A stretch of DNA of 64,000 bases from Albidovulum sediminis. GTDB taxonomy: Bacteria; Pseudomonadota; Alphaproteobacteria; Rhodobacterales; Rhodobacteraceae. Under the pieces are notes generated by a model that did no database searches, had not been told where the DNA came from, and saw nothing but the letters and a program-made list of their open reading frames with translations. Shown piece after piece: positions 35,961 through 50,324 of this stretch. A program made the translations under genes and the position numbers. The DNA lies in contig NZ_JAOCQF010000008.1 in assembly GCF_025380365.1 (NCBI RefSeq), forward strand, positions 1 to 64,000. The letters run 5' to 3'. How positions within the stretch are numbered: position 1 is the first letter of the stretch; each line of letters opens with the position of its first letter.

Positions 35961-37019
35961 GGGCTCTGTTGCACAAATCCGGTGACAAGCGGACGTCCCC
36001 CATCCCCGGACATACCTATCCTGCGGCTTCGGTTACGGGGATGCCAAGCGCGGTGAAGCCGTTCAGGACGGCCACACGGACCTGGAACTCGGCAACTTGA
36101 CGGTCGAAGTCCCGCGCCATGAGGCGCTGACCCAGCAGTTTCACACAGTGCATCTTGGTCTCGTCGCGGCTTCGGCGGTGGTATCCGCTCCATCGTCGCC
36201 AGAGCGCGCGGCCGAGGTATTTCGATGCTCTCAGGGCCTCGTCGCGCGCGACCGCGCCTGCCGTGACAGTCTTCCACGGCTTTGCATTCTTGCGGGGCGG
36301 GATGATTGCGGCGGCCCCGCGATCGGCGATGGCGTCATGGCATTTTCGGGTGTCGTAGGCGCCATCTGCTGTGACACTGGCAATGTCCTGATCGGCGGCG
36401 ATCTGGGCCAACAGTTCGGGCAGCATGGGGGCATCCCCGACGTCGCTGCTGGTGACCTCGACCGCCCTGATCTCCAACGTTTGTTCGTCGATCCCGAGAT
36501 GGACCTTGCGCCAGACTCGGCGTTTTGCCCCGCCGTGCTTGCGCGCGTTCCACTCACCTTCCCCTTCGACCTTGATCCCGGTGCTGTCGATCAAGAGATG
36601 CAGCGGACCCTGCGCGCCCCGATGCGGGATGCGGGATGTTCACGGCAAGGGTCTTTTGGCGACGGCTCAGTGTGCTTAAATCAGGCACATCCCAGTCTAG
36701 TCCTACAAGCTACAAGAGACTTTCGACGAACCCAGTCGTCTGCCTGAGCGCCATGCCGAAAAGGACCTTCATCGTCAGGCAGGTCTGGACGGAAGCGTCG
36801 CTGTAAACGGGCTGTCGCCCACGCTTGCTGGTTGGCTTCGCAGCCCACGCCATGCCAGGATCGAACCAGATCGTCAGCGACCCGCGGCGCTTGAGCGCCT
36901 TGTTGTACGCGGGCCAGTTCAGGGTCTTGTAAGTCGGTGTGTTCGGTTTGCTCATGCCTTCCAGCTATCACGCTGGATTCACAAGATGAATCCCTTACGC
37001 GATTTGTGCAACAGAGCCC
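35961..37019 (-). mobile_element. IS5-family insertion sequence, inactivated
   Basis: 1,059-bp element bounded by perfect 19-bp inverted repeats: GGGCTCTGTTGCACAAATC at 35961-35979 and its complement at 37001-37019. It holds one transposase gene in the minus direction, now broken. The repeat start GGGCTCTGTTGC and size of about 1.05 kb are typical of IS5-group elements. No clear target duplication was found at the flanks, so a rearrangement after insertion is possible. Confidence 0.9.
36016..36955 (-). pseudogene. IS5-family transposase, broken by a stop and a frameshift
   Basis: Reading from 36955, the N-terminus (MSKPNTPTYKTLNWPAYNKALKRRGSL) and DDE-type core (IDSTGIKVEGEGEWNARKHG, TADGAYDTRKCHDAIADRGA, RASKYLGRALWRRWSGYHRRSRDE) are typical of IS5-group transposases. 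An amber codon follows VESLL (about 36707-36709). A 7-bp tandem duplication (CCCGCAT twice, near 36625-36640) shifts the frame. Removing one copy restores the reading HRGAQGPLHLLIDSTG. Non-functional. Confidence 0.88.
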
Positions 37020-37102: not shown

Positions 37103-38080
37103 CTATTGGCTCTTAGCCCGCCACATCCGATACCGCCCCTGCCCGGTCATTTCGCGGACCAGACCACGCGCTTCCATCCAAGCGAGGTTGCGCTGGACGG
37201 CGGCGCGGCTGGCAGCGGTCAGAGCTTCGGCCATCGCGGCGGAGACAAGGGGCCATTCGGTCAACACGGCGCGCAAGGCGCTAGGAGTCTTTCCCGAAAG
37301 TGAGGTCATCTCGGCTTCCGCCCGCACTGACCACGCTTCAATATCGTCGAGGTGCCGCATCGCGGTCAGGCACGCCGTCTCCATTCCGTCAAGCCAGCGG
37401 GCCAGACGTTCAGCGGGTGGACCACCGACGCGTAGCCCCCCTGCCCCGCCCATGGCCAGAGGTGCGAAGACTGCGCCCTTGCCCTCGCTCGCCGCAATCC
37501 GCGCGGCCGTGACGGCTGCCTCCATTCGGTCACCCTGCTGCCCGAGGCCCGCGAGGCTCCAGAGGTGAAAGCCCAAGCAAGCACGGGTGATCGGGTGCAA
37601 CTCGGAGGCTTGCGCCGTCAGGTCCAGCCAACCGCCTGCGCGATCCGCAAACGGTTCGGCCGCATCGGCGAGGTTCTCGGGGTCGCGGCGGTCAAGGAAG
37701 GCGGAAAGGTCTACCTCCGGTCCCGGCCCACCGGATAGCCGCCGCACCGCCCAACCGACACGCGCGAGCGCAGCAGTATCGTCCTGTACCCCTGACAGGC
37801 GCATGGAGATCCAGAGCGCCAGCCTATCGGGTCCAATGCGGTCGCCGTTGAGCCAACTCAGATCGGCAGCCTCGATCAGGGCCAACCGGTGCCGCCATCC
37901 TTCCGGGCCGCGCTTCAAACGGTCGTCCAGCGCGCCGACGCGACCGGCCACACGGGCAAGACGCGCGGCATGAGCCGCCTCTGCCATCCGCCAATCGTCG
38001 AGGACCTCGGCTTCACGCGGTTCGGCCCGTGGTCCGGGAGGCAGGTAATCCGGTTCCTCTTCCATTGGACCGGGCAGAAA
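37103..38080 (-). pseudogene. 3' part of a gene split by the Tni transposon (RHE_PE00001-like)
   Basis: 325 residues of a protein resembling the RHE_PE00001 group found on rhizobial and rhodobacterial plasmids, ending with a helix-turn-helix-like segment (AASRAAVQRNLAWMEARGLVREMTGQGRYRMWRAK). Its true 5' end lies beyond the transposon at 44645-44737. Joining the two parts and removing one CCACA copy gives one uninterrupted 356-residue frame. An ATG at 38084-38086 is created at the junction (transposon end plus target site), so a nearly full-length protein might still be made. Function unknown. Confidence 0.8.
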
Positions 38081-38085
38081 CCACA
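38081..38085 (+). repeat. Left target-site duplication (CCACA)
   Basis: The pentamer CCACA directly precedes the transposon end TGTCGC and recurs right after the opposite end at 44645-44649. Five-bp duplications are the rule for Tn5053/Tn402-type elements. Confidence 0.9.
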
Positions 38086-38109
38086 TGTCGCATTTTCTTC
38101 ACCATTTCA
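38086..38109 (+). repeat. Left terminal inverted repeat of the Tni transposon
   Basis: Begins TGTCGCATTTTC and ends CCATTTCA. It matches the right end (44621-44644, reverse strand) at 18 of 24 positions, including the outer TGTCGC and inner ATTTCA. Further TTTCAGC copies follow at about 38105, 38164 and 38194. Confidence 0.85.
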
Positions 38110-38253
38110 GCACATGATTATTACGTGATTTCTAGAAGATACGGCGATATCGCACATCATTTTTCAGCTTAAGGTTTCAATTTTGGTTCCGTATTTCAGC
38201 AAGTGGCCGCCCTGTTGGCGCACTGCCCAGCCGGTTTCGAAAGTTTCATATCG

Positions 38254-39888
38254 ATGACGTCCGGCGGAGCGCATGCCTCGGATGAAGCTTGGGCCAAGGC
38301 GACGCGGATCGCGCGCGAGTTGGACCGGATTCTTGACGGGGCGGCGCCCGTGCGTGAGGCCGTGATGCGCGCGGCATCCGAGCTGCGGCTTTCGACACGC
38401 CAAGTCTACAACTATCTGGCGCGGTATCGGGAAGAGCGCAGGGTATCGTCCCTGCTGCCGCGAACGAGTGAGACAAGGAAACCACGGGTCAGCCCCGCTG
38501 TCGAGAGCATCATCGCGATGACCCTGCAGGAGATGTGGCTTTGCCCTGAGCAGCCAGACCTTGCACCGATCGTTGAAGAGATCCGCGCCCGCTGCGCAGA
38601 GGAAGGGCACACTCCACCCGCCTATGTCACTGTCGCCCGGCGGATCCCCATTCTGTTCGCACCGGAAGAAATTGCCCGCCGCCGCCTGTCAGATAGTAAA
38701 CACCTGAACCGGCTGAAGCCGCGACCCGGCTACATCCGGGCTAACCACGCGCTCGACGTTGTCCAGATCGATCACACGCCGGCAGACATCCAGTTTGTCG
38801 AGGTGATTGATGACCACGGCGTCTTCGTTGGTCGCCCCTATCTGACCATCGCAGCAGATGTGGCCACGAGCGCGATCATCGGCTTCTGCCTGACCCTCGA
38901 GCGGCCGTCACGACTGTCTGTCGCGCTTTGTCTGGCGCACGCGATGTGCTGCAAGACTGCCTGGCTGGCAGAACGCGGCATCGATCATGCCTGGCCAATG
39001 CATGGTCGCCCGAAGCAGATCGTCGTCGATTCCGCCAAGGAGTTCCAAAGCAGCACCTTCAGCAGAGGATGCGCGGACTATGGCATCGCCATACGCATGC
39101 GGAACAAGGGCACCGTGCATCGGGGCGGAGTCGTCGAACGCCTGCTGGGGAAAGTGAACACGGCGCTGCGGGCTTTGCCGGGCAAGACGGGGCGTTCCAT
39201 CGCGGATCGGGGCGACTATGCCTCGGAAGCGCGGGCACGGCTCAGCTTCGCGGATCTTGAACGCTGCATCGCGCTCGCGATCATCGACCACAACCTGAGT
39301 CAGAATGCGCGCAAGCTGACCGTTCCGGCGAAAGAGTGGGAAGATCGGTTCCAGCCGAAAGACCAGCCGATCGATGCACCTGTCGATGTGCTGCTGAATT
39401 TCCTGCCGCGCAAGACGCGGAAGATTTCACCTCAGGGCATCAGTCTCTTCGCCATCGACTATTTCGAGCCCTGGCTGGGCCCGCTGGTCGCGCGTCGTGA
39501 CCGGCTGAACCCGCTCGATCTGTGCTATGATCCTCGCGACATCAGCCATGTCTACGTCAAGGATCCGGATACCCAGGCTTGGCGGCCGGTCAGGCGACGG
39601 GACGGACTGGCCGAGCCGATCACGCTCTGGCAGCACCAGACGGATCGACAGCGGCGGCGCGAAATCCAGCGGCGCCCTGTGCAGGAGGCATCAGCCATCC
39701 GACGCGAAATCGCCGCAACTGTTGCCGCCGCCAAAACCCCCAAAAGCCGGTTGAAGGAGATGACCCGCGCCCGGCATGCCACCGAGGCAAAGAAGCCTTA
39801 TGCCGACTTCGCTGCGCCTTCCGCCTCGGCCCAGGCAAAGCTCGACCCGGATCGTCCGCGGCGGGTCTTCCCTGTCGAGGATTGGTAA
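38254..39888 (+). CDS. tniA: TniA DDE transposase (Mu/Rve type)
   Basis: 544-residue transposase with an N-terminal helix-turn-helix region (REAVMRAASELRLSTRQVYNYLARY), an rve integrase catalytic core and a Mu-transposase C-terminal domain. The DDE triad is D173 (VQIDHTPAD), D259 (VVDSAKEF) and E295 (GVVERLLGK), giving exact D-35-E spacing. The length fits TniA/TnsB-like proteins. ATG 38254 is preferred; a GTG at 38203 would add 17 residues. Followed by tniB after one base. Confidence 0.95.
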   Translation: MTSGGAHASDEAWAKATRIARELDRILDGAAPVREAVMRAASELRLSTRQVYNYLARYREERRVSSLLPRTSETRKPRVSPAVESIIAMTLQEMWLCPEQPDLAPIVEEIRARCAEEGHTPPAYVTVARRIPILFAPEEIARRRLSDSKHLNRLKPRPGYIRANHALDVVQIDHTPADIQFVEVIDDHGVFVGRPYLTIAADVATSAIIGFCLTLERPSRLSVALCLAHAMCCKTAWLAERGIDHAWPMHGRPKQIVVDSAKEFQSSTFSRGCADYGIAIRMRNKGTVHRGGVVERLLGKVNTALRALPGKTGRSIADRGDYASEARARLSFADLERCIALAIIDHNLSQNARKLTVPAKEWEDRFQPKDQPIDAPVDVLLNFLPRKTRKISPQGISLFAIDYFEPWLGPLVARRDRLNPLDLCYDPRDISHVYVKDPDTQAWRPVRRRDGLAEPITLWQHQTDRQRRREIQRRPVQEASAIRREIAATVAAAKTPKSRLKEMTRARHATEAKKPYADFAAPSASAQAKLDPDRPRRVFPVEDW

Positions 39889-39889
39889 G

Positions 39890-40771
39890 GTGCCGGACCA
39901 CCTCATGCCCGCCATAGTGCCACTCTTGCAGGCCGATGACGCAGTGCGGATCGCCCATGTGCGCGCGCCGCGCTGGATCAGCCATCCGGCGGCCGGCGCG
40001 GCGCATGACGCGATGCGACTGCTGCTTGAGCGACCGCCATCGCTGCGCCCACGCGGTTTGCTGCTTGCCGGTCCCTACCATAACGGCAAGACAATGATCG
40101 CCGAACGCTTCGCCGTCGAACATCTGCGTGCCGCCGACCAGCAAAAGGTGTGGGTGATCCAGACCCGGGAAGGTGCGGGCCTGTCGCATTTCTACGCCAG
40201 CATCCTGTCCGGATTGCGCGCGCCACAAGCCGCGGGCTGGCGCAGCCTGTCCCGCGCCGGCGATCAGGTCGATCATCTTCTCGAGCGCCTGAAGCCGCGC
40301 CTTTTGATCTTCGACGAGTTCCACAGCGCGTTGCGTGGGCGGCGCCAGGATGTGAAGGCCATCTTCTCGTTCTTGCGGCGGATCGCACGGGTGCATGACA
40401 TCTCACCCGTCCTTGTCGGCGAGATCGCGATCTACGATGCGGTGCATGACACCGACGAAATGGGCTCACGTTTCGATACGATCCCCATTCCACGATGGGC
40501 GTATGACGAGGAGTTCGCGACGCTTCTCGACAGCCTGGAAGCCAGTCTGCCGCTCGCCGACACCTCCGATCTGTCGCGCGAACCCTTGGCGAAGATCATC
40601 CACGATCTGTCAGAGGGGCTGATCGGCGAGGTTGTCGAGATCGTCACCCGGGCCGCAGTTGCGGCCATCTCGCGCGGTGAGGACCGGATCACGGGCGCAA
40701 CCCTGTCGGACCTTGGCTATGTGCCTCTCTCGAGGCGCCGCAATTCGGCTTTGCGTCACGAGATGACATGA
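39890..40771 (+). CDS. tniB: TniB AAA+ ATPase
   Basis: 293-residue TniB/TnsC-like regulator ATPase that activates TniA and helps choose targets. Walker A is GPYHNGKT at about residues 61-68, Walker B LLIFDEFHSAL at about 137-147, sensor-like region SPVLVGEIAIYDA. The GTG start has GAGG upstream and lies one base after the tniA stop; an ATG at 39905 is an alternative. It overlaps tniQ by 4 bp. Confidence 0.93.
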   Translation: MPDHLMPAIVPLLQADDAVRIAHVRAPRWISHPAAGAAHDAMRLLLERPPSLRPRGLLLAGPYHNGKTMIAERFAVEHLRAADQQKVWVIQTREGAGLSHFYASILSGLRAPQAAGWRSLSRAGDQVDHLLERLKPRLLIFDEFHSALRGRRQDVKAIFSFLRRIARVHDISPVLVGEIAIYDAVHDTDEMGSRFDTIPIPRWAYDEEFATLLDSLEASLPLADTSDLSREPLAKIIHDLSEGLIGEVVEIVTRAAVAAISRGEDRITGATLSDLGYVPLSRRRNSALRHEMT

Positions 40772-41778
40772 GGTTTGGGCCGACCGGGATCTCCGTCACA
40801 CCTGCAGAGCGGTATGAAAGTGCGGCGGGAAACCGTTGGCCCATGAGCATTATGCCCGCACCAGGTGAACTTCTGTCGAGTTGGCTGCACCGCCTCGCTT
40901 ACGCAAACGGCATACCTCCGCACTATTTTGGTGCGCTTCTCGAAGCGCCGGGTGAGAACTGGTCGGCGCGGCTTGATCGGGCATTGCCCGGTCGCATCCT
41001 GCAGCTTTTGGAAGAGCATACCCACATACCTCTGGAAGACATAACGGCTCTGACTAATGCTCCCGACCCTTTGGCCGTGCTGCGTTTGCCCCTGCGGGCA
41101 TCGCCTCAGCAGAGTTGCGCACCAAAGACGCAGGCGACCTGGCTGCAATTCTGCCCGGCCTGTCTGGCGGAAGACGAAACGCCCTATTTTCGCCGAGACT
41201 GGCGCCTCGCGACACGCGTTTCTTGCTTTCGCCACGGCTGCCGACTTCGGGACAGGTGCCCATCCTGCGGACAAGGATTGGCTCCGTTCAGCCAGAAGCG
41301 TCTTGTGCCGCATCAGATCTGCGCCTGGTGCGGCGCGGCCCTCTGCAAACGCACCCGTCCTGCCACCAATGGGGTTCGGCGTCTTGAGCGTCTGATCGAC
41401 GATCTGCTTCGTCTGCAGGCATCAGGGCATCGAATGGCAGAGGGGCGATCACTCCCGGACCTTCTTGGATCAGCCTGCTTTCAATTTAGTCGACGGCCAA
41501 TGTCCATCGCGCGCCTCTCTCATCGGGATCGCTATCAGCTGTTTCGGCAATTGACGGACGGGCAATCGACGCCGTTCGGAACGCGAAGAAGTTCCGCGAT
41601 CATTTATTGGAAACGCGTCGCTCAGGTTGCGCCAGCTTGGGGCGGACTGGTCACATCTTTCAGCGATGCCGTCCTGCCTCGGCCCAAAGCTGGGCCTTGC
41701 TCTAACACCGCTGGCCCGAATTTGGCGGATCTCGTTCAGGCGGCCGCGCGGCTCGATCAGCAGCGGCAAGCGCTGTAA
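40768..41778 (+). CDS. tniQ: TniQ target-site/transposition protein
   Basis: 336-residue TniQ family protein. N-terminal signature PAPGELLSSWLHRLAYANGIPPHYF is diagnostic, followed by zinc-finger cysteines (FCPACL, CFRHGCRLRDRCPSC, ICAWC). TniQ/TnsD proteins guide transposition to specific targets. It overlaps the tniB stop by 4 bp. The convergent scpB gene ends 16 bp downstream, so no transposon end lies between them. Confidence 0.93.
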   Translation: MRFGPTGISVTPAERYESAAGNRWPMSIMPAPGELLSSWLHRLAYANGIPPHYFGALLEAPGENWSARLDRALPGRILQLLEEHTHIPLEDITALTNAPDPLAVLRLPLRASPQQSCAPKTQATWLQFCPACLAEDETPYFRRDWRLATRVSCFRHGCRLRDRCPSCGQGLAPFSQKRLVPHQICAWCGAALCKRTRPATNGVRRLERLIDDLLRLQASGHRMAEGRSLPDLLGSACFQFSRRPMSIARLSHRDRYQLFRQLTDGQSTPFGTRRSSAIIYWKRVAQVAPAWGGLVTSFSDAVLPRPKAGPCSNTAGPNLADLVQAAARLDQQRQAL

Positions 41779-41794
41779 AAATTCCCGGTGAGTT

Positions 41795-42391
41795 TCAGGC
41801 GCTCGCGGCCAGCCCGGCATCATTCAGCTGTTCAGGATCCGGCAGGTCCCGCAAGCTCTCCAACCCGAAGGCCGCGAGGAACGCGTCTGTGGTCACGAAG
41901 GTATAGGGGGCACCACGACGCGGCGCGCGCGGCCCAGTTCCAATCAGACCGTGTGCATGGAGCCGCCCGATCAGGTCCCGACCGATCTCCTTGCCGAAGA
42001 TGTCCTTCAGCCCATCGCGCGTGATTGGCTGATGGTAGGCGATGGCCGCCAAAATCGCGACGTCGAACTCGTTCAGGTCCAGCAACTGGTCCCCGACATC
42101 CGCTGCGGAGCGGATCGCAGGCGCGTAAACAGACCGCGTCCGGAACATCCACCCCCCTGCGACCATGGCAATCTCGAACGCCCGCCCTTCTAGATCGGCG
42201 GCAAGATCCTCGATCAGCAGATCAACCGAGGTCGCCTGCCCCACTATGCGCGCCAGATCCTCGCGCGGTACAGGCGAGGCAGAGGCAAACAGTACCGCCT
42301 CGATCCGCCGCATCCATTCGCGCCAGCGCAGCTCCGGCGGCAGGTCGGACAACTCGCGGTCAAATTCAGGCTCGGAGCGATCCTTGGCCAT
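41795..42391 (-). CDS. ScpB condensin subunit homologue carried on the transposon
   Basis: 198-residue ScpB-family protein with two winged-helix domains (EWMRRIEAVLFASASPVPREDLARIVG and LNEFDVAILAAIAYHQPITRDGLKDIFGKEI, then IGRLHAHGLIGTGPRAPRRGAPYTFVTTDAFLAAFGL). ScpB normally binds ScpA in the SMC condensin complex that organises chromosomes. No scpA or smc gene is nearby. The start at 42391 is 2 bp after the DUF1403 stop, so the two form an operon. Its job on a transposon is unknown. Confidence 0.9.
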   Translation of the reverse strand: MAKDRSEPEFDRELSDLPPELRWREWMRRIEAVLFASASPVPREDLARIVGQATSVDLLIEDLAADLEGRAFEIAMVAGGWMFRTRSVYAPAIRSAADVGDQLLDLNEFDVAILAAIAYHQPITRDGLKDIFGKEIGRDLIGRLHAHGLIGTGPRAPRRGAPYTFVTTDAFLAAFGLESLRDLPDPEQLNDAGLAASA

Positions 42392-42393
42392 CG

Positions 42394-43278
42394 TTACACC
42401 CCGTAGAGCCGGAAGGTGTCGCGGCCAGTCAGTTCGCGCACAGCGCCGAGATCGACCAGCCGGTCGCAGAGCCGCCGCGCCGCGCGGTCCGGCAAAGGCA
42501 AGACTGAGGGAGCGACCGCGTCCTGTTTCAGGAATATCTCGACGGCGTCGGCCGCCCCCTTGGCCCGAAGCTTTGGTGCGACCGCCTTCAGATGCGCCGC
42601 CCGACGCGCGAGGTTGGTGGAGAGACGCACGGCCTCGGCCGCCGATGACACGAGCGCCCGATGACAGGCGAGCTTCAATTCGTCGCCTTGCTTGCGCAGG
42701 TCGGCACGTTTCAGGCCAGCCGCCAGCAGCGGCACGACATGATCCCAACCAAGCGCCTGGGCGAGTGCAGCATCCGCGAGGATCAGCGCAGCTTCGTCAG
42801 CACGTGGCGCCTCGCGCAGAACAGCTTCCAGCACCAGTGCTGCTCGTTTGACCGGCGCCCCCACCCCCGCATCGAGCCACGTCGCGATCTGGCCCGGCTC
42901 GAAGGCCGACAAGGCTCGGCCCAGAGCCTTGACCGCCACCGGCCGCTCCACCGCGCGCCGCCAGATCAGATAGGTTTCACCTGCCGGTCCGGGTAGATCG
43001 CCGGGACGCAGAAGGTGCGCTGCATCGCGCAGTTCCCCTGCCCGCTCCCGTCGGCCAGAAAACGCAACACAAGCCTCAGCTGCGCACAGCGCGAGCCGCT
43101 CCCGCAACAAGGCTTGGGGCACCTCCGCGCATCCCAGCACAACATGCAAGTGGTTCAACGCAGCGCCCGACAAAAACGCCACATCTTCAAGGGTTTCAAC
43201 CCGTGCCGAGGTGACCCAGGCGGGCATCCGGGGTAGAGTGTCTGTGTCGATGGAGTGTTCCGGTCGGGCAAATGTCAT
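42394..43278 (-). CDS. DUF1403 family protein
   Basis: 294-residue DUF1403 protein. Typical motifs are PAWVTSARVETLEDVAFLSGAALNHLH at the N-terminus, ALILADAALAQALGWDHVVPLLAAGL in the middle, and a C-terminal winged-helix-like end DRAARRLCDRLVDLGAVRELTGRDTFRLYG. The same closing pattern occurs in the gene interrupted by the transposon, suggesting a shared DNA-binding end. Biochemical function is unknown. It is divergent from the tyrosine recombinase with a palindrome between them. Confidence 0.88.
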   Translation of the reverse strand: MTFARPEHSIDTDTLPRMPAWVTSARVETLEDVAFLSGAALNHLHVVLGCAEVPQALLRERLALCAAEACVAFSGRRERAGELRDAAHLLRPGDLPGPAGETYLIWRRAVERPVAVKALGRALSAFEPGQIATWLDAGVGAPVKRAALVLEAVLREAPRADEAALILADAALAQALGWDHVVPLLAAGLKRADLRKQGDELKLACHRALVSSAAEAVRLSTNLARRAAHLKAVAPKLRAKGAADAVEIFLKQDAVAPSVLPLPDRAARRLCDRLVDLGAVRELTGRDTFRLYGV

Positions 43279-43356
43279 GACTGAAGCCTAAACCATCGCG
43301 GCGCTTTTCTCCAGAAAATAGCACAGAAAACGCCTCACTCTATCTTTTGCCATAAT

Positions 43357-43381
43357 GTCCGATAACCTTGCGTTATCGGAC
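43357..43381 (+). promoter_or_regulatory. Palindromic dif-like candidate recombination core
   Basis: Perfect inverted repeat: arms GTCCGATAAC (43357-43366) and GTTATCGGAC (43372-43381) around CTTGC. The arrangement ATAA-7 bp-TTAT is like the core sites of XerCD, TnpI and Cre-type tyrosine recombinases. It lies 11 bp before the tyrosine recombinase start and between divergent genes. It could be the crossover site for cointegrate resolution, an operator for these genes, or both. Confidence 0.6.
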
Positions 43382-43392
43382 GTAAAACTGAT

Positions 43393-44544
43393 ATGCTCAA
43401 AAACATGGGTAGTCTCACAAATAGCAGCACCAAAATCGAGGGTTTGGGCGGGTCGGAGTCCGAGATTTCGAGCTCAGCGTCCTATGACTCGTTGAACAGT
43501 GACGAACACGACGAGAGAACCTCTCGGGATCGAGCCTCAATCGCCCTGCCCGCCAATGTGGCCGGCTCCGGCGCGCTCGACCGGCTGATCGATACCGCCC
43601 GGGACTACGCTGAGGCCTCGACTGCTGGGAACACGAACAAGGCCTACGCCGCCGACTGGAAACACTTCACCCGCTGGTGCCGACTGAAAGGCACAGAACC
43701 TCTGCCCCCCTCACCCGAGATGATTGGACTTTATGTGGCTGATCTGGCTGCACCAACCGGGAAGACCCCTGCCCTTTCGGTCTCCACGATCGAGCGTCGT
43801 CTCTCGGGGCTTTCCTGGAACTATAGGCAGCGCGGCTTCACTCTTGATCGCAAGGATCGCCACATCGCCACTGTTCTGGCTGGGATCAAACGCAAGCATG
43901 CGCGCCCGCCGGTTCAGAAGGAAGCTATCCTGCCTGAGGATATCCAGGCCATGGTGGCCACCCTGCCCTACGATCTCCGCGGGCTCCGAGATCGGGCGAT
44001 CTTGCTTCTGGGTTATGCAGGCGGCCTGCGCAGGTCGGAGGTGGTCAACCTCGACATACACAAGGATGATACACCGGACTCCGGCGGCTGGCTGGAGATC
44101 TTCGACAAAGGCGCGCTGCTCACGCTTAACGCCAAGACCGGGTGGCGCGAGGTCGAGGTCGGGCGCGGCTCAAGCGACCAGACCTGTCCCGTCCACGCGC
44201 TGGAGCAATGGCTACACTTTGCCAAGATCGGCTTTGGCCCAGTCTTCGTGCGCACCTCGCGGGACGGCAAAAGCGCCCTCGAGGCGCGCCTTTCCGACAA
44301 GCACGTCGCAAGACTGATCAAGGCAACCGTTCTTAAGAGTGGTGTCAGATCCGATTTGCCGGAAGCCAAACGGTTGGCAATGTTCTCAGGGCATTCCTTG
44401 CGTGCCGGGCTCGCCTCGTCGGCAGAGGTTGATGAGCGCTATGTTCAAAAGCACCTAGGACATGCGTCGGCCGAGATGACCCGGCGCTACCAGCGCAGGC
44501 GCGACAGGTTCAGGGTGAACCTGACCAAAGCCGCAGGGCTGTGA
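43393..44544 (+). CDS. Tyrosine recombinase of the transposon
   Basis: 383-residue site-specific recombinase. An N-terminal disordered stretch (about 45 residues) precedes the core-binding SAM-like domain (STAGNTNKAYAADWKHFTRWC) and the catalytic domain with R213 (GGLRRSE), H334 and R337 (HSLRAG), H357 (HLGHAS) and nucleophile Y366 (RRYQRR). All five catalytic residues are present. As no TniR is encoded, it is the likely resolvase of the element. Alternatively it mediates integration of a gene module. Confidence 0.93.
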   Translation: MLKNMGSLTNSSTKIEGLGGSESEISSSASYDSLNSDEHDERTSRDRASIALPANVAGSGALDRLIDTARDYAEASTAGNTNKAYAADWKHFTRWCRLKGTEPLPPSPEMIGLYVADLAAPTGKTPALSVSTIERRLSGLSWNYRQRGFTLDRKDRHIATVLAGIKRKHARPPVQKEAILPEDIQAMVATLPYDLRGLRDRAILLLGYAGGLRRSEVVNLDIHKDDTPDSGGWLEIFDKGALLTLNAKTGWREVEVGRGSSDQTCPVHALEQWLHFAKIGFGPVFVRTSRDGKSALEARLSDKHVARLIKATVLKSGVRSDLPEAKRLAMFSGHSLRAGLASSAEVDERYVQKHLGHASAEMTRRYQRRRDRFRVNLTKAAGL

Positions 44545-44620
44545 AGCTCAGGAATCTTGACGCGTTGGTGAAGCGCTAAGATGAAATTCCAGCGCTTCAG
44601 TTTCAGCTTACTGCTTCAAT

Positions 44621-44644
44621 TGAAATCAGGAACTAAACGCGACA
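44621..44644 (-). repeat. Right terminal inverted repeat of the Tni transposon
   Basis: Read on the minus strand it begins TGTCGCGTTTAG and continues to CTGATTTCA, pairing with the left end at 18 of 24 positions. A further inverted AAGCTGAAA motif follows within the element, equivalent to TTTCAGCTT at the left end. Confidence 0.85.
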
Positions 44645-44649
44645 CCACA
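44645..44649 (+). repeat. Right target-site duplication (CCACA)
   Basis: Second copy of the pentamer CCACA, immediately outside the right transposon end. Together with 38081-38085 it marks the insertion site. Confidence 0.9.
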
Positions 44650-44737
44650 GGTCGTCCTCGAGTGCCTGGTCGAGCTCCTCAGCATCGCCGGACGGATTAT
44701 TGAAGTCATCATGCTGTGAAGGGTGTTGCGACGTCAT
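44645..44737 (-). pseudogene. 5' part of the gene split by the Tni transposon
   Basis: Reads MTSQHPSQHDDFNNPSGD and then 13 more codons up to DDLW at the transposon edge, 31 codons in all. The frame continues exactly with FLPGPMEEEPDY at 38080 on the other side of the element. The upstream palindrome at 44741-44762 overlaps the likely promoter. The fragment alone is non-functional. Confidence 0.78.
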
Positions 44738-44740
44738 ATG

Positions 44741-44762
44741 TGCAAAATACGAGCATTTTGCA
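44741..44762. promoter_or_regulatory. Inverted repeat upstream of the interrupted gene
   Basis: Arms TGCAAAAT (44741-44748) and ATTTTGCA (44755-44762) around ACGAGC form a perfect dyad 3 bp before the start codon of the interrupted gene. Position suggests an operator. The rest of the gap up to the resolvase includes AAACG-GT-CGTTT at 44915-44926 and a similar motif at about 44948-44960, possible resolvase subsites. Confidence 0.5.
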
Positions 44763-44962
44763 AATTACCCAAGGGTTTTTGCCGAGGTGGTCCTGCTCTC
44801 TATATAGCACGCGCGCGCGATGGTCCGTGTGGTCTCTCCGATTGCAGTCGCGGTGCGGAAACCAAGGGGTTTCTGACGAGCAGCGCCACAGTGCACACCC
44901 TTGCATCTGTTTTCAAACGGTCGTTTATTAGTGGTATGTGAAACTGCAAACGGCCTGTTTTG

Positions 44963-45847
44963 ATGCCATTGATAGGCTACGCGCGCGTCTCGACCGAGGA
45001 TCAGACCCCCCTGCCCCAGTCGCAGGCCCTGAAATCCGCAGGCTGCGTCGAGATCCACGAGGAGCAGGCCTCGGGCGGGAACCGCGCGCGGCCCGTGCTG
45101 GCGCGGGTGCTGGAGCGGATCGGCAAGGGCGACACGCTGGTGGTGGTGCGCATCGACCGTCTGGCGCGGTCGCTCTCCCACCTCCTCGAGGTGATCGAAC
45201 GGCTGGAGGCCAAGAACGCCTTCTTCCGATCGCTCACCGATCCGATCGACACGTCCTCCCCGCAGGGTAAGTTCACCCTCCAGGTCCTCGGCGCCGCAGC
45301 TGAGTTTGAGCGCGCCCTAATCCGCGAACGCACCAAAGCCGGCCTGGCCAGCGCACGAACCAAAGGCCGGGTTGGCGGCAATCCGGGTCTGCGCGTCCGG
45401 GATCCGGCGGCGCTGCGCAAGGTGCGGCTGGCCCGGCAGGACGGCTATATGGAACGCCTGAACGAGACGGCGCAGGACTGGGTGCCCCAGGTCCGCCGCC
45501 TGCGGCCCGACTTAGCCTGGGAAGATGTGGTGCGCATCGTCAACGGCCCCCTGCCCCACGAGCGTCAATGGACGCAAAGCCGACTCCTGCGCGCGGTCAA
45601 CGCCTATGTCCGGGACGGCTTCCTGCCGCCCACGGTACTGGACCGCGCCGGCCGCCGCGAAATCGACGACCGCCTGCCCGCCATCGTCGCCGCCATCAAG
45701 GGCGCGGACCCCGAGATCACGCTTCAGGCAATCTGCACCAGACTGGAAGCGATGCGCGAGCGCACGCCCCGCGGGCGGACAAGCTGGCAGCCGTCGTCGG
45801 TGAAGATGCTGCTGGAGCGGGCGGAGAGGTTGGGTCTGCTTGAGTAG
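44963..45847 (+). CDS. Serine recombinase (resolvase family)
   Basis: 294-residue recombinase with a resolvase/invertase catalytic domain: S10 in IGYARVSTEDQ, RIDRLARSLSHLLEVIERLEAKNAFFRSL, and the helix segment GAAAEFERALIRERTKAGLASARTKGR. A long C-terminal extension (about 150-294) is richer than in Tn3 resolvases and contains a helix-turn-helix-like end. ATG 44963 is preceded by a TTG that could also start. It may keep the plasmid monomeric. It is outside the Tni transposon. Confidence 0.9.
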   Translation: MPLIGYARVSTEDQTPLPQSQALKSAGCVEIHEEQASGGNRARPVLARVLERIGKGDTLVVVRIDRLARSLSHLLEVIERLEAKNAFFRSLTDPIDTSSPQGKFTLQVLGAAAEFERALIRERTKAGLASARTKGRVGGNPGLRVRDPAALRKVRLARQDGYMERLNETAQDWVPQVRRLRPDLAWEDVVRIVNGPLPHERQWTQSRLLRAVNAYVRDGFLPPTVLDRAGRREIDDRLPAIVAAIKGADPEITLQAICTRLEAMRERTPRGRTSWQPSSVKMLLERAERLGLLE

Positions 45848-49112: not shown

Positions 49113-50324
49113 ATGGAGTACACACCGATTTCGCCGTTTATGCGGCCGATCTCGCATGCCCATCTGCGCGTGGTCGAGCGTCCTGAGGCGTCTGTTCCGG
49201 GCAAGCCCGTCAACAAGTGGGAGCTCCTTCGCGAGCTGTCCAAGGCGCAGGCGGCCTTTGGGGTTTCCGAACGCGATCTGACCGTTCTGCAGGGGCTTCT
49301 CAGCTTCTTTCCGGATGATGCACTTGGCGGGAATACCGAGATGGTCGTCTTCCCGTCGAACAAGGCAATCTGCGAGCGGCTGAACGGCATGCCCTGCTCC
49401 ACGATGCGCAGGCACATTGCCCGTCTGGTGGATGCTGGCTTGCTCATGCGCCGCGATAGTCCCAACGGCAAGAGGTATGTTCGCAAGCACGGCGAAGAGC
49501 GTGTGGCTTTTGGCTTCGACCTCTCGCCACTCTACTGCCAATCCGAAGAGGTTGCACGGGCCGCAGAGGCTGTGCGTGAGGCCGAGGACCGTGTCCGGAG
49601 ACTGCGGGAAATCGTGAGCCTCATGCGGCGCGATCTTGCTGCCCTGGCGGAGTTCGGAGAAGAGGTCCAGCCAGGCCTCGGCCTCTGGGATCAGTTTCGC
49701 GACAAGGCTGTTCTCACAGCGCGCGCCCTTCGCCGCAAGCTCACGCTCGAGGAGCTCTCAGCATTTCGCGCCGACCTTCAAGCCCTTCTCGACCACGCAC
49801 GCAACGTCATTGATGGTCCTGAAACAGAAGAAATGAACACCAATGGAGCCAATACTGAGCGCCACCATCATAATTCAAATAAAGAATCTATAGATCTTGA
49901 ACCTGCCTTAGAAAAAGGCGGGGCGGCGGCCGGCGCGCCAGATGTTGAAACGGATGCACCTAGTGCTGACGTGGAAGAAGCAGACACAAGACGCGTGCCA
50001 AAGATCCCGCTCCATCTGGTGATCGCGGGCTGCCCGTCGCTCAAAACTTTCTACCAGGGCGATATCCGCCACTGGCATCAGCTTTTCGACGCGGCTTGCC
50101 ATGTGCGACCGGCCATGGGGATCAGTGCTTCCGCTTGGGAAGAAGCGCAACGGTTCATGGGCCCCGAGCAGGCATCGATCGTTGTTGTCGCCATGCTGGA
50201 ACGCTTCGCCGACATCCGATCGCCCGGTGGCTATCTCCGTGCGCTGACATCGAAGGCGGCGGCGGGCGAGTTCTCCTGCGGGCCGATGGTCATGGCACTG
50301 ATGTCCCGGCGAAGCGCGGCGTGA
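49113..50324 (+). CDS. repC: RepC replication initiator
   Basis: 403-residue RepC initiator. The N-terminal winged-helix domain is in FGVSERDLTVLQGLLSFFPDD ... VVFPSNKAICERLNGMPCSTMRRHIARLVDAGLLMRRDSPNGKR. An AT-rich linker region is followed by the C-terminal domain ending YLRALTSKAAAGEFSCGPMVMAL. ATG at 49113 gives the common MEYTPISPF start; a GTG at 49101 is possible. Expression is controlled by the antisense RNA upstream. Confidence 0.96.
   Translation: MEYTPISPFMRPISHAHLRVVERPEASVPGKPVNKWELLRELSKAQAAFGVSERDLTVLQGLLSFFPDDALGGNTEMVVFPSNKAICERLNGMPCSTMRRHIARLVDAGLLMRRDSPNGKRYVRKHGEERVAFGFDLSPLYCQSEEVARAAEAVREAEDRVRRLREIVSLMRRDLAALAEFGEEVQPGLGLWDQFRDKAVLTARALRRKLTLEELSAFRADLQALLDHARNVIDGPETEEMNTNGANTERHHHNSNKESIDLEPALEKGGAAAGAPDVETDAPSADVEEADTRRVPKIPLHLVIAGCPSLKTFYQGDIRHWHQLFDAACHVRPAMGISASAWEEAQRFMGPEQASIVVVAMLERFADIRSPGGYLRALTSKAAAGEFSCGPMVMALMSRRSAA
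49867..49905. other. AT-rich stretch within repC, candidate replication origin
   Basis: A short very AT-rich segment (around AATTCAAATAAAGAATCTAT) stands out in the otherwise GC-rich repC gene. In repABC plasmids the origin has been mapped inside repC at an AT-rich site, so this is the likely oriV. Identified by composition only. Confidence 0.5.

Follow-up and report, generated by a model that had tools for sequence, protein, structure and literature searches.

The stretch of DNA analyzed here, referred to as the window, comprises 64,000 nucleotides (nt) of Albidovulum sediminis. At positions 38086-44644 it harbors a TniABQ transposon of 6,559 base pairs (bp) with ends TGTCGC, whose terminal inverted repeats match at 18 of 24 positions and which is flanked by CCACA at 38081-38085 and 44645-44649. 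The genes tniA, tniB, tniQ, scpB, a DUF1403 gene and a tyrosine recombinase gene are all intact. Numbers with L and G label compared loci and sampled genomes, respectively. The features of the element and its insertion site are as follows, in the order of their coordinates.

37103..38080, minus strand: target gene, main part, interrupted at codon 30/31; weakly RHE_PE00001/HTH_13-like, both under the curated cut-off
38081..38085, no strand: target duplication, left copy, CCACA (sequence)
38086..38109, plus strand: left terminal inverted repeat TGTCGC..., 18/24 against the right end (same end in relatives)
38203..39888, plus strand: tniA, DDE (D-35-E) transposase, TnsB-like (translation, Pfam, TnsB alignment)
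39890..40771, plus strand: tniB, AAA+ ATPase (start chosen at 39890; longer open frame from 39776)
40768..41778, plus strand: tniQ, 336 amino acids, short form (translation, Pfam)
41795..42391, minus strand: scpB homologue, SMC_ScpB (profile matches; start chosen at 42391)
42394..43278, minus strand: DUF1403 gene (Pfam)
43357..43381, no strand: palindrome GTCCGATAAC-cttgc-GTTATCGGAC, putative crossover site of the tyrosine recombinase (sequence exchange, module association)
43393..44544, plus strand: tyrosine recombinase, nearest solved relatives Cre (profile matches, structure-database comparison)
44621..44644, minus strand: right terminal inverted repeat (sequence)
44645..44649, no strand: target duplication, right copy, CCACA (sequence)
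44650..44737, minus strand: target gene, detached 5' part (rejoined frame)
44740..44762, no strand: inverted repeat, conserved, at the start of the target gene (comparison of loci)
44960..45847, plus strand: plasmid serine recombinase gene, outside the element (profile matches)

The gene order tniA-tniB-tniQ is that of the Tn5053/Tn402 family, with which the element also shares the 5-bp target duplication and terminal inverted repeats of ~25 bp. In Pfam, E-values of 6e-44 (TniB), 2.3e-25 (TniQ), 4.6e-33 (ScpB), 1.7e-98 (DUF1403), 2.6e-14 (phage integrase) and 2.3e-13 (Mu-transpos_C) were obtained. TniA shows the D-35-E spacing in its translation, and its residues 52-518 of 561 align to TnsB of CRISPR-associated transposons. 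The gene scan of 38086-44644 detected no serine recombinase TniR and, in its place, a tyrosine recombinase; a tnsA endonuclease was absent from the scanned open reading frames. An earlier note on this DNA had delimited the element by its ends, repeats and flanking CCACA, had read TniA as a D-35-E transposase beside intact TniB and TniQ, and had seen the tyrosine recombinase, scpB and DUF1403 in place of TniR/res; remeasurement, translations, the TnsB alignment and the gene and Pfam scans agree with it in all of this.

Plasmids of Rhodobacterales commonly carry relatives of the element. When 84,980 species genomes were scanned by pattern, 35 loci were obtained, and a TniA match at E 1e-100 or better is present in 13 of the 390 genomes sampled from the order. 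The plasmid collection contains 70 records with TniA of at least 90% identity, many of them near-identical Pseudosulfitobacter plasmids, as well as 19 records at 60-80%. According to TniA identity to the window's, a close group (~92-100%) and a distant group (~70-79%) were distinguished. Where the sequence is long enough, both have the order tniABQ, scpB, DUF1403, recombinase, apart from exceptions that include L032, L042 and L043. The same ends occur at many other loci and, as the earlier note had proposed to check, ends and 5-bp duplications both recur at independent loci. Chance repeats were rejected as an explanation, since the ends recur and empty sites exist. Genes scattered as plasmid backbone, which that note had named as a refutation, were likewise rejected for tniABQ and the ends, and this holds partly true for scpB, DUF1403 and the recombinase, as described below.

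When the element is excised together with one CCACA, the split gene reads through as an open frame of 356 codons. Its product matches NCBIfam RHE_PE00001 with E 9.3e-6 and 25 bits (cut-off 250) and Pfam HTH_13 with 25.0 bits (cut-off 26.1). Identity to the window's target gene is 59-89% for the long alleles hit, and 56-89% for long matches when the window's own copies are excluded. Eight uninterrupted alleles align across the insertion point, reading DLWFLPGP in seven and DLWFLPRS in one (L070). One uninterrupted allele (L068) carries a single CCACA at the insertion point in the DNA comparison, which is the empty site that the earlier note had suggested to look for. An element-free neighborhood exists on pPAN1 of Paracoccus pantotrophus and on three further plasmids, which share the target gene, the serine recombinase, PIN and AbrB/MazE genes and repABC. 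Also the window runs beyond the element into repABC, with ParA- and ParB/RepB-type proteins and RepC at 49143-49655. A partial DDE_Tnp_1 transposase lies immediately left of the target gene, at 36016-36594.

Alignments starting at residue 31 were discarded as a sign of interruption, and no count was taken, since the genes of L080, L081 and L084, whose N terminus is variable, are intact. The target gene downstream of the insertion is free of stops in all 29 long alleles examined, and in many loci, though not all, an in-frame ATG is provided from the transposon end; due to this, a target gene with a shortened N terminus may still be expressed.

The most striking feature, which the earlier note had not seen, is the recurrent insertion at nearly one place and in one orientation within this plasmid gene. 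Here, the 60 bp left of the left end were compared for loci whose TniA match begins by residue 30; seven loci in which the contig ends at the element and two in which no left end was found were dropped, and later-starting TniA matches (L014-L016, L026, L044, L055 and others) fall outside this count. Among 36 distinct left flanks, 30 lie at one motif of the target gene, all in the same orientation, and they form two clusters ~11 bp apart, 3-7 or 14-18 bp from the motif. The close group contributes 16 of its 19 flanks, with offsets 3-7, and the distant group 14 of 17, with offset 4 (five) or 14-18 (nine). When the 16 close-group loci at this motif are compared, their TniA proteins share 91-100% identity, whereas the target proteins are identical at a mean of 79% and a minimum of 70%. 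In 119 of 120 pairs identity is higher for TniA than for the target protein, with a correlation between the two of r 0.15; L012 and L013, for example, share an identical TniA at 72% identity of the target proteins. Since the transposases are more alike than the target genes in nearly all pairs, the insertions are repeated and not inherited, and a single ancestral insertion passed on to all plasmids was rejected. In the genome of the window itself, another target allele carries a divergent copy, inserted at the equivalent position with its own ACCAC duplication, and the left end of a third, truncated copy also lies at the target point.

How this address is found can be explained in more than one way. 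Targeting of the TnsD type, in which TniQ alone reads the conserved coding DNA (a motif close to GGNCCNGGCAGRAACCA, plus strand) and sets the offset, would fit the offset and orientation being nearly fixed relative to conserved codons in otherwise divergent alleles, and a single attachment site in a single orientation is indeed what the 30 of 36 left flanks show, distributed over two clusters. Against this, TniQ has 336 amino acids, and a small TniQ is said to be a hallmark of elements with an additional target selector (PMC10293859). Furthermore, insertions in filled loci keep almost the same distance from the motif and from the inverted repeat at the start of the gene, so that the two are indistinguishable as determinant. 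Reading by TniQ alone is considered a tentative possibility.

A second explanation starts from the res-site hunters, for which insertion near resolvase sites, a preferred orientation and 5-bp duplications are described (PMC7765201, PMC12217951). In this Tn5053/Tn402 sense, the plasmid serine recombinase at its own res site would recruit the transposon, and TniQ would not read the target gene. Of 18 loci with at least 1 kilobase (kb) of sequence beyond the recombinase gene, 16 have a serine recombinase match there, several of them a partial one, and L032 and L039 have none. The stretch between the target and serine recombinase genes contains conserved inverted repeats, with the right junction 92-95 or 84 bp from one of them, and the non-tniA end points toward the serine recombinase, which is the orientation reported for res-site hunters (PMC7765201). 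The orientation fits insertion at a res site, but the position is inside the neighboring gene. The two sharp clusters in coding DNA differ from the varied carrier positions given for such elements in the same paper (PMC7765201), and the C16 copy, whose duplication is intact, has no serine recombinase match within 3.5 kb, though a later loss is possible. The chances of this explanation are put somewhat below even.

The duplications and the right flanks bear on the mode of movement. An exact 5-bp duplication was found in 4 of 15 distinct loci with both flanks, namely the window, L049, L071 and L017. The right flanks of L002, L004, L009 and L010 are at the target site, yet differ from the left flank; in L005, L011, L014, L019, L020, L023, L025, L032 and L044 they lie 99-607 bp further, toward or within the serine recombinase gene. 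In L033 the right flank is displaced by 551 bp in the opposite direction, and that of L072 is unmapped. Missing duplications could be explained by exchange of the right half at the palindrome together with adjacent deletion via intramolecular replicative transposition. For the latter, Gemmobacter fulvus serves as a witness: its plasmids NZ_CP076365.1 and NZ_CP076366.1 (L086, L087) carry two identical 6,547-bp copies with crossed flanks, where GCCGG ends the left flank of one copy and begins the right flank of the other, as though replicative transposition had split one plasmid in two. Since no TnsA gene is present, a replicative mode is favored, and transposition of this family is likely replicative.

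Between the DUF1403 gene and the recombinase gene, a palindrome near GTCCRATAA-N7-TTATCGGRC occupies the same place in 18 aligned elements, in some with one base changed. The window holds one such palindrome, both strands counted, versus 0.01 expected. In an alignment of 13 close and 5 distant elements, identity was determined in 60-bp steps. Left of the palindrome, identity is 0.55-0.83 between the families, 0.82-0.92 within the close and 0.71-0.93 within the distant family; right of it, the values are 0.81-0.95, 0.84-0.95 and 0.76-0.95, respectively. In 10-bp steps, between-family identity jumps from 0.29 to 0.86 at the left edge of the palindrome. The correlation of distance with family is 0.85 in the final 75 bp left of the palindrome center and 0.00 in the first 75 bp right of it, and a Mantel test gave r 0.82 for left against left and 0.09 (p 0.29) for left against right. 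Of the 13 close elements in this alignment, 12 have GTCCGATAA as the left arm of the palindrome, and all 5 distant ones have GTCCAATAA. Because exchange between the two families breaks there, the palindrome behaves as a crossover site, putatively that of the tyrosine recombinase. A comparison with solved structures places this enzyme closest to Cre (E about 1e-6), and the translation of its gene contains R, H-x-x-R, H and Y, which we take to be the catalytic residues. A tyrosine recombinase next to a predicted palindromic crossover site, as in Cre/Xer-type systems, is hence found here.

An apparent hotspot for insertions is the interval that separates DUF1403 from the recombinase gene. In Actibacterium pNS6002 (L085, 2899-6532) it contains a Tn3-family transposon, and L021 and its relatives carry a 2.5-kb insert, presumably IS91-like. 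Recombinase-mediated cassette capture at the palindrome was considered for the latter and rejected, since the insert has this presumed IS91-like appearance and its two junctions do not have the spacer in common.

The scpB-DUF1403-recombinase combination is not unique to the transposon and is also present as a tniABQ-free plasmid module near repABC (L045-L048, L075, L078), on plasmids of Ruegeria, Mameliella, Paracoccus, Sulfitobacter, Sagittula and Agrobacterium. The palindrome pattern was detected in 63 of 371 sampled genomes of the order, with 0 for the reversed control, and 73 of 89 sites have a DUF1403 match 94-163 bp downstream (median 103). Conversely, the exact pattern stands beside 68 of 101 long DUF1403 matches, a count restricted to rows above the cut-off, from which ten short fragments were excluded. 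DUF1403 is above the cut-off in 84 of 380 genomes and thereby far commoner than the window-type TniA. The exact pattern is further present in Xanthobacter, Agrobacterium, Sinorhizobium and Methylocystis loci and, with one change, in the Sagittula locus; in L079 (Bradyrhizobium) the pattern was not found and the interval is occupied by a toxin-antitoxin pair. Sixteen palindromes have no DUF1403 match within 250 bp, including those on three contigs of G140 and two of G335, and these may be lone recombination sites or degraded modules.

Given the Cre-nearest recombinase, the DUF1403-linked palindrome and the tniABQ-free modules near repABC, the module is read as a Cre-like resolution system of plasmids, probably for dimer resolution, which has been captured by the transposon. 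The function of Cre/lox is the resolution of dimers. Judging by their linkage, ScpB and DUF1403 may act as partners of the recombinase. The predicted structures of DUF1403 (predicted local distance difference test, pLDDT, 51) and TniQ (pLDDT 44) were too poor for use. Homology between DUF1403 and the target-gene protein is not claimed, as hhalign revealed only a weak C-terminal similarity (probability 19%, E 0.0012). The last ~100 positions of DUF1403 (PF07183, weak matches) match parts of many open frames of ~340-370 residues, which are perhaps relatives of the target gene, hinting at a common C-terminal domain.

One may also regard scpB, DUF1403 and the recombinase as passive cargo for plasmid stability that takes no part in transposition, which the tniABQ-free modules and the few tniABQ copies without an intact recombinase gene (L042, L043, L032) would support. 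This appears unlikely, since most loci of either family carry the module where the sequence extends that far, and by Pfam the genes of the window element include no recombinase other than the tyrosine recombinase.

The reading preferred here, with a probability of roughly 0.8, is that of a TniABQ family specialized for alphaproteobacterial plasmids, which combines near-fixed insertion with a captured Cre-like resolution module acting at the palindrome in place of TniR/res. The insertion of a copy by TniA, TniB and TniQ, most likely by the replicative route, would take place within the 5' part of a conserved gene of the plasmid, at a position that hardly varies. This gene lies next to repABC and a serine recombinase gene, and TniQ is the candidate for recognizing the target. 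The resulting cointegrate would then be resolved by the Cre-like tyrosine recombinase of the element at the palindrome between DUF1403 and the recombinase gene; such a resolution is considered likely. The block of recombinase, palindrome, DUF1403 and scpB would represent a plasmid maintenance module captured in place of the TniR/res of Tn5053/Tn402. Of all this, the boundaries with their duplications and empty sites, the recurrent targeting, the exchange breakpoint at the palindrome and the occurrence of the module without tniABQ have good support from the sequences.

Several points weigh against this reading. Six of the 36 left flanks lie elsewhere (L002/L051, L019, L031/L061, L032/L065, L035, L056), and exact duplications are present in just 5 of 16 distinct two-flank loci once L092 is added; in the others, right-half exchange and adjacent deletion may be the reason. 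The right-right Mantel correlation is weak (r 0.25, p 0.05), so that the right half has little signal of its own, as expected from repeated exchange or from low divergence, and part of the absent left-right correlation reflects this low signal. In addition, members of the distant family also differ among themselves left of the palindrome (identity 0.71-0.93), and the left arm is not strictly family-bound, with the A form present in the close-group copies L008, L027 and L042. Finally, a crossover at the palindrome alone does not prove that cointegrate resolution is the task of the recombinase, and the partner roles of ScpB and DUF1403 are proposed from linkage.

The palindrome is also approached by a second lineage. 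In L006, L008, L027, L092 and L077 from Methylocystis, another TniABQ element is located between the palindrome and the recombinase gene, with TniA 33-35% identical to the window's and 45-92% among themselves. The distance between the palindrome and the end of this element is 29 or 30 bp in all five. These five had been noticed through their position; a search of 380 genomes with the TniQ of one of them, independent of position, detected copies in seven genomes, and four of the five measurable ones lie at 29 bp (its own genome, G067, G187 and one copy of G311), with the other G311 copy at 53 bp; G192 (no end recognized), L107 (no palindrome) and L104 (contig edge) were not measurable. Taken together, six of seven distinct measurable insertions are 29-30 bp from the palindrome, in two orders of Alphaproteobacteria (L006 5332-5386, L008 15156-15210, L027 10218-10273, L092 10983-11037, L077 1876-1930 and L110). 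Other tniABQ elements similarly distant from the window's (L015, L026, L044, L083) were not placed there. The palindrome is the likely determinant of these insertions; the start of the recombinase gene is likewise at a near-fixed distance from the element end. It is conceivable, though rather doubtful, that several TniABQ lineages home to recombinase loci of plasmids, the window family to the serine-recombinase locus of repABC plasmids and the second lineage to the palindrome of the Cre-like recombinase, at 29-30 bp from it, with the recombinase-bound site, or the DUF1403/ScpB partners, as target selector. If true, surveys would have overlooked a target selector, and the module acquired by the elements would itself be the means by which they are hunted.

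With regard to its relevance, a survey places 20% of Tn7-like transposons in plasmids, some without a recognized plasmid selector, and names unrecognized plasmid target selectors as one possible reason (PMC8649781). The element family described here may help to reveal how such transposons find plasmids. Since it has a single plasmid address, precise ends, duplications and empty alleles, it is directly testable. Beyond this, a role of DUF1403 in plasmid and cointegrate resolution is suggested, and the 25-bp site can be used as a marker of the module across genomes.

In the literature searched, whose coverage leaves most subscription journals outside, no paper on DUF1403 and no description of the plasmid homing combined with the captured module was found. 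Neither Tni nor ScpB appears in the main text of a 2026 survey of Sulfitobacter mobile elements (PMC13386836), and a term search of PMC9025767 gave no match either. The earlier note knew of no Tni transposon with this gene combination. This stands for the captured module and the plasmid homing, which are apparently undescribed, and does not stand for the tyrosine resolvase as such, which has been reported at survey level for TnsA-less Tn7-like elements (PMC8649781).

Compared with known systems, Tn5053/Tn402 is similar in tniABQ, 5-bp duplications and inverted repeats of ~25 bp, as well as in the location near a plasmid resolvase gene with the non-tniA end facing it (PMC7765201). In contrast, the window element has a tyrosine recombinase with a predicted palindromic site for the serine TniR/res, carries scpB and DUF1403, and targets a nearly fixed point within the gene neighboring the resolvase gene. 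TnsA-less Tn7-like transposons have resolvases of the serine or the tyrosine type, and replicative movement is predicted for them; their clades 2 and 3 resemble the window element in the missing tnsA, the tyrosine recombinase and the predicted replicative transposition. Neither scpB nor DUF1403 nor this target is mentioned in the passages compared, which leave the plasmid target selectors open (PMC8649781). Tn6022 likewise combines Tni/Tns genes and a short TniQ with a protein of the tyrosine-recombinase fold, its target selector TnsF. TnsF is a tyrosine-recombinase relative that lacks the catalytic site and targets comM (PMC10293859), whereas the window recombinase has catalytic residues and a predicted crossover site. 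Cre/lox and Xer, finally, share with the window module a tyrosine recombinase, a short palindrome beside its gene and a plasmid location near replication genes, while the module differs from both in its core sequence and in the linked DUF1403 and scpB genes.

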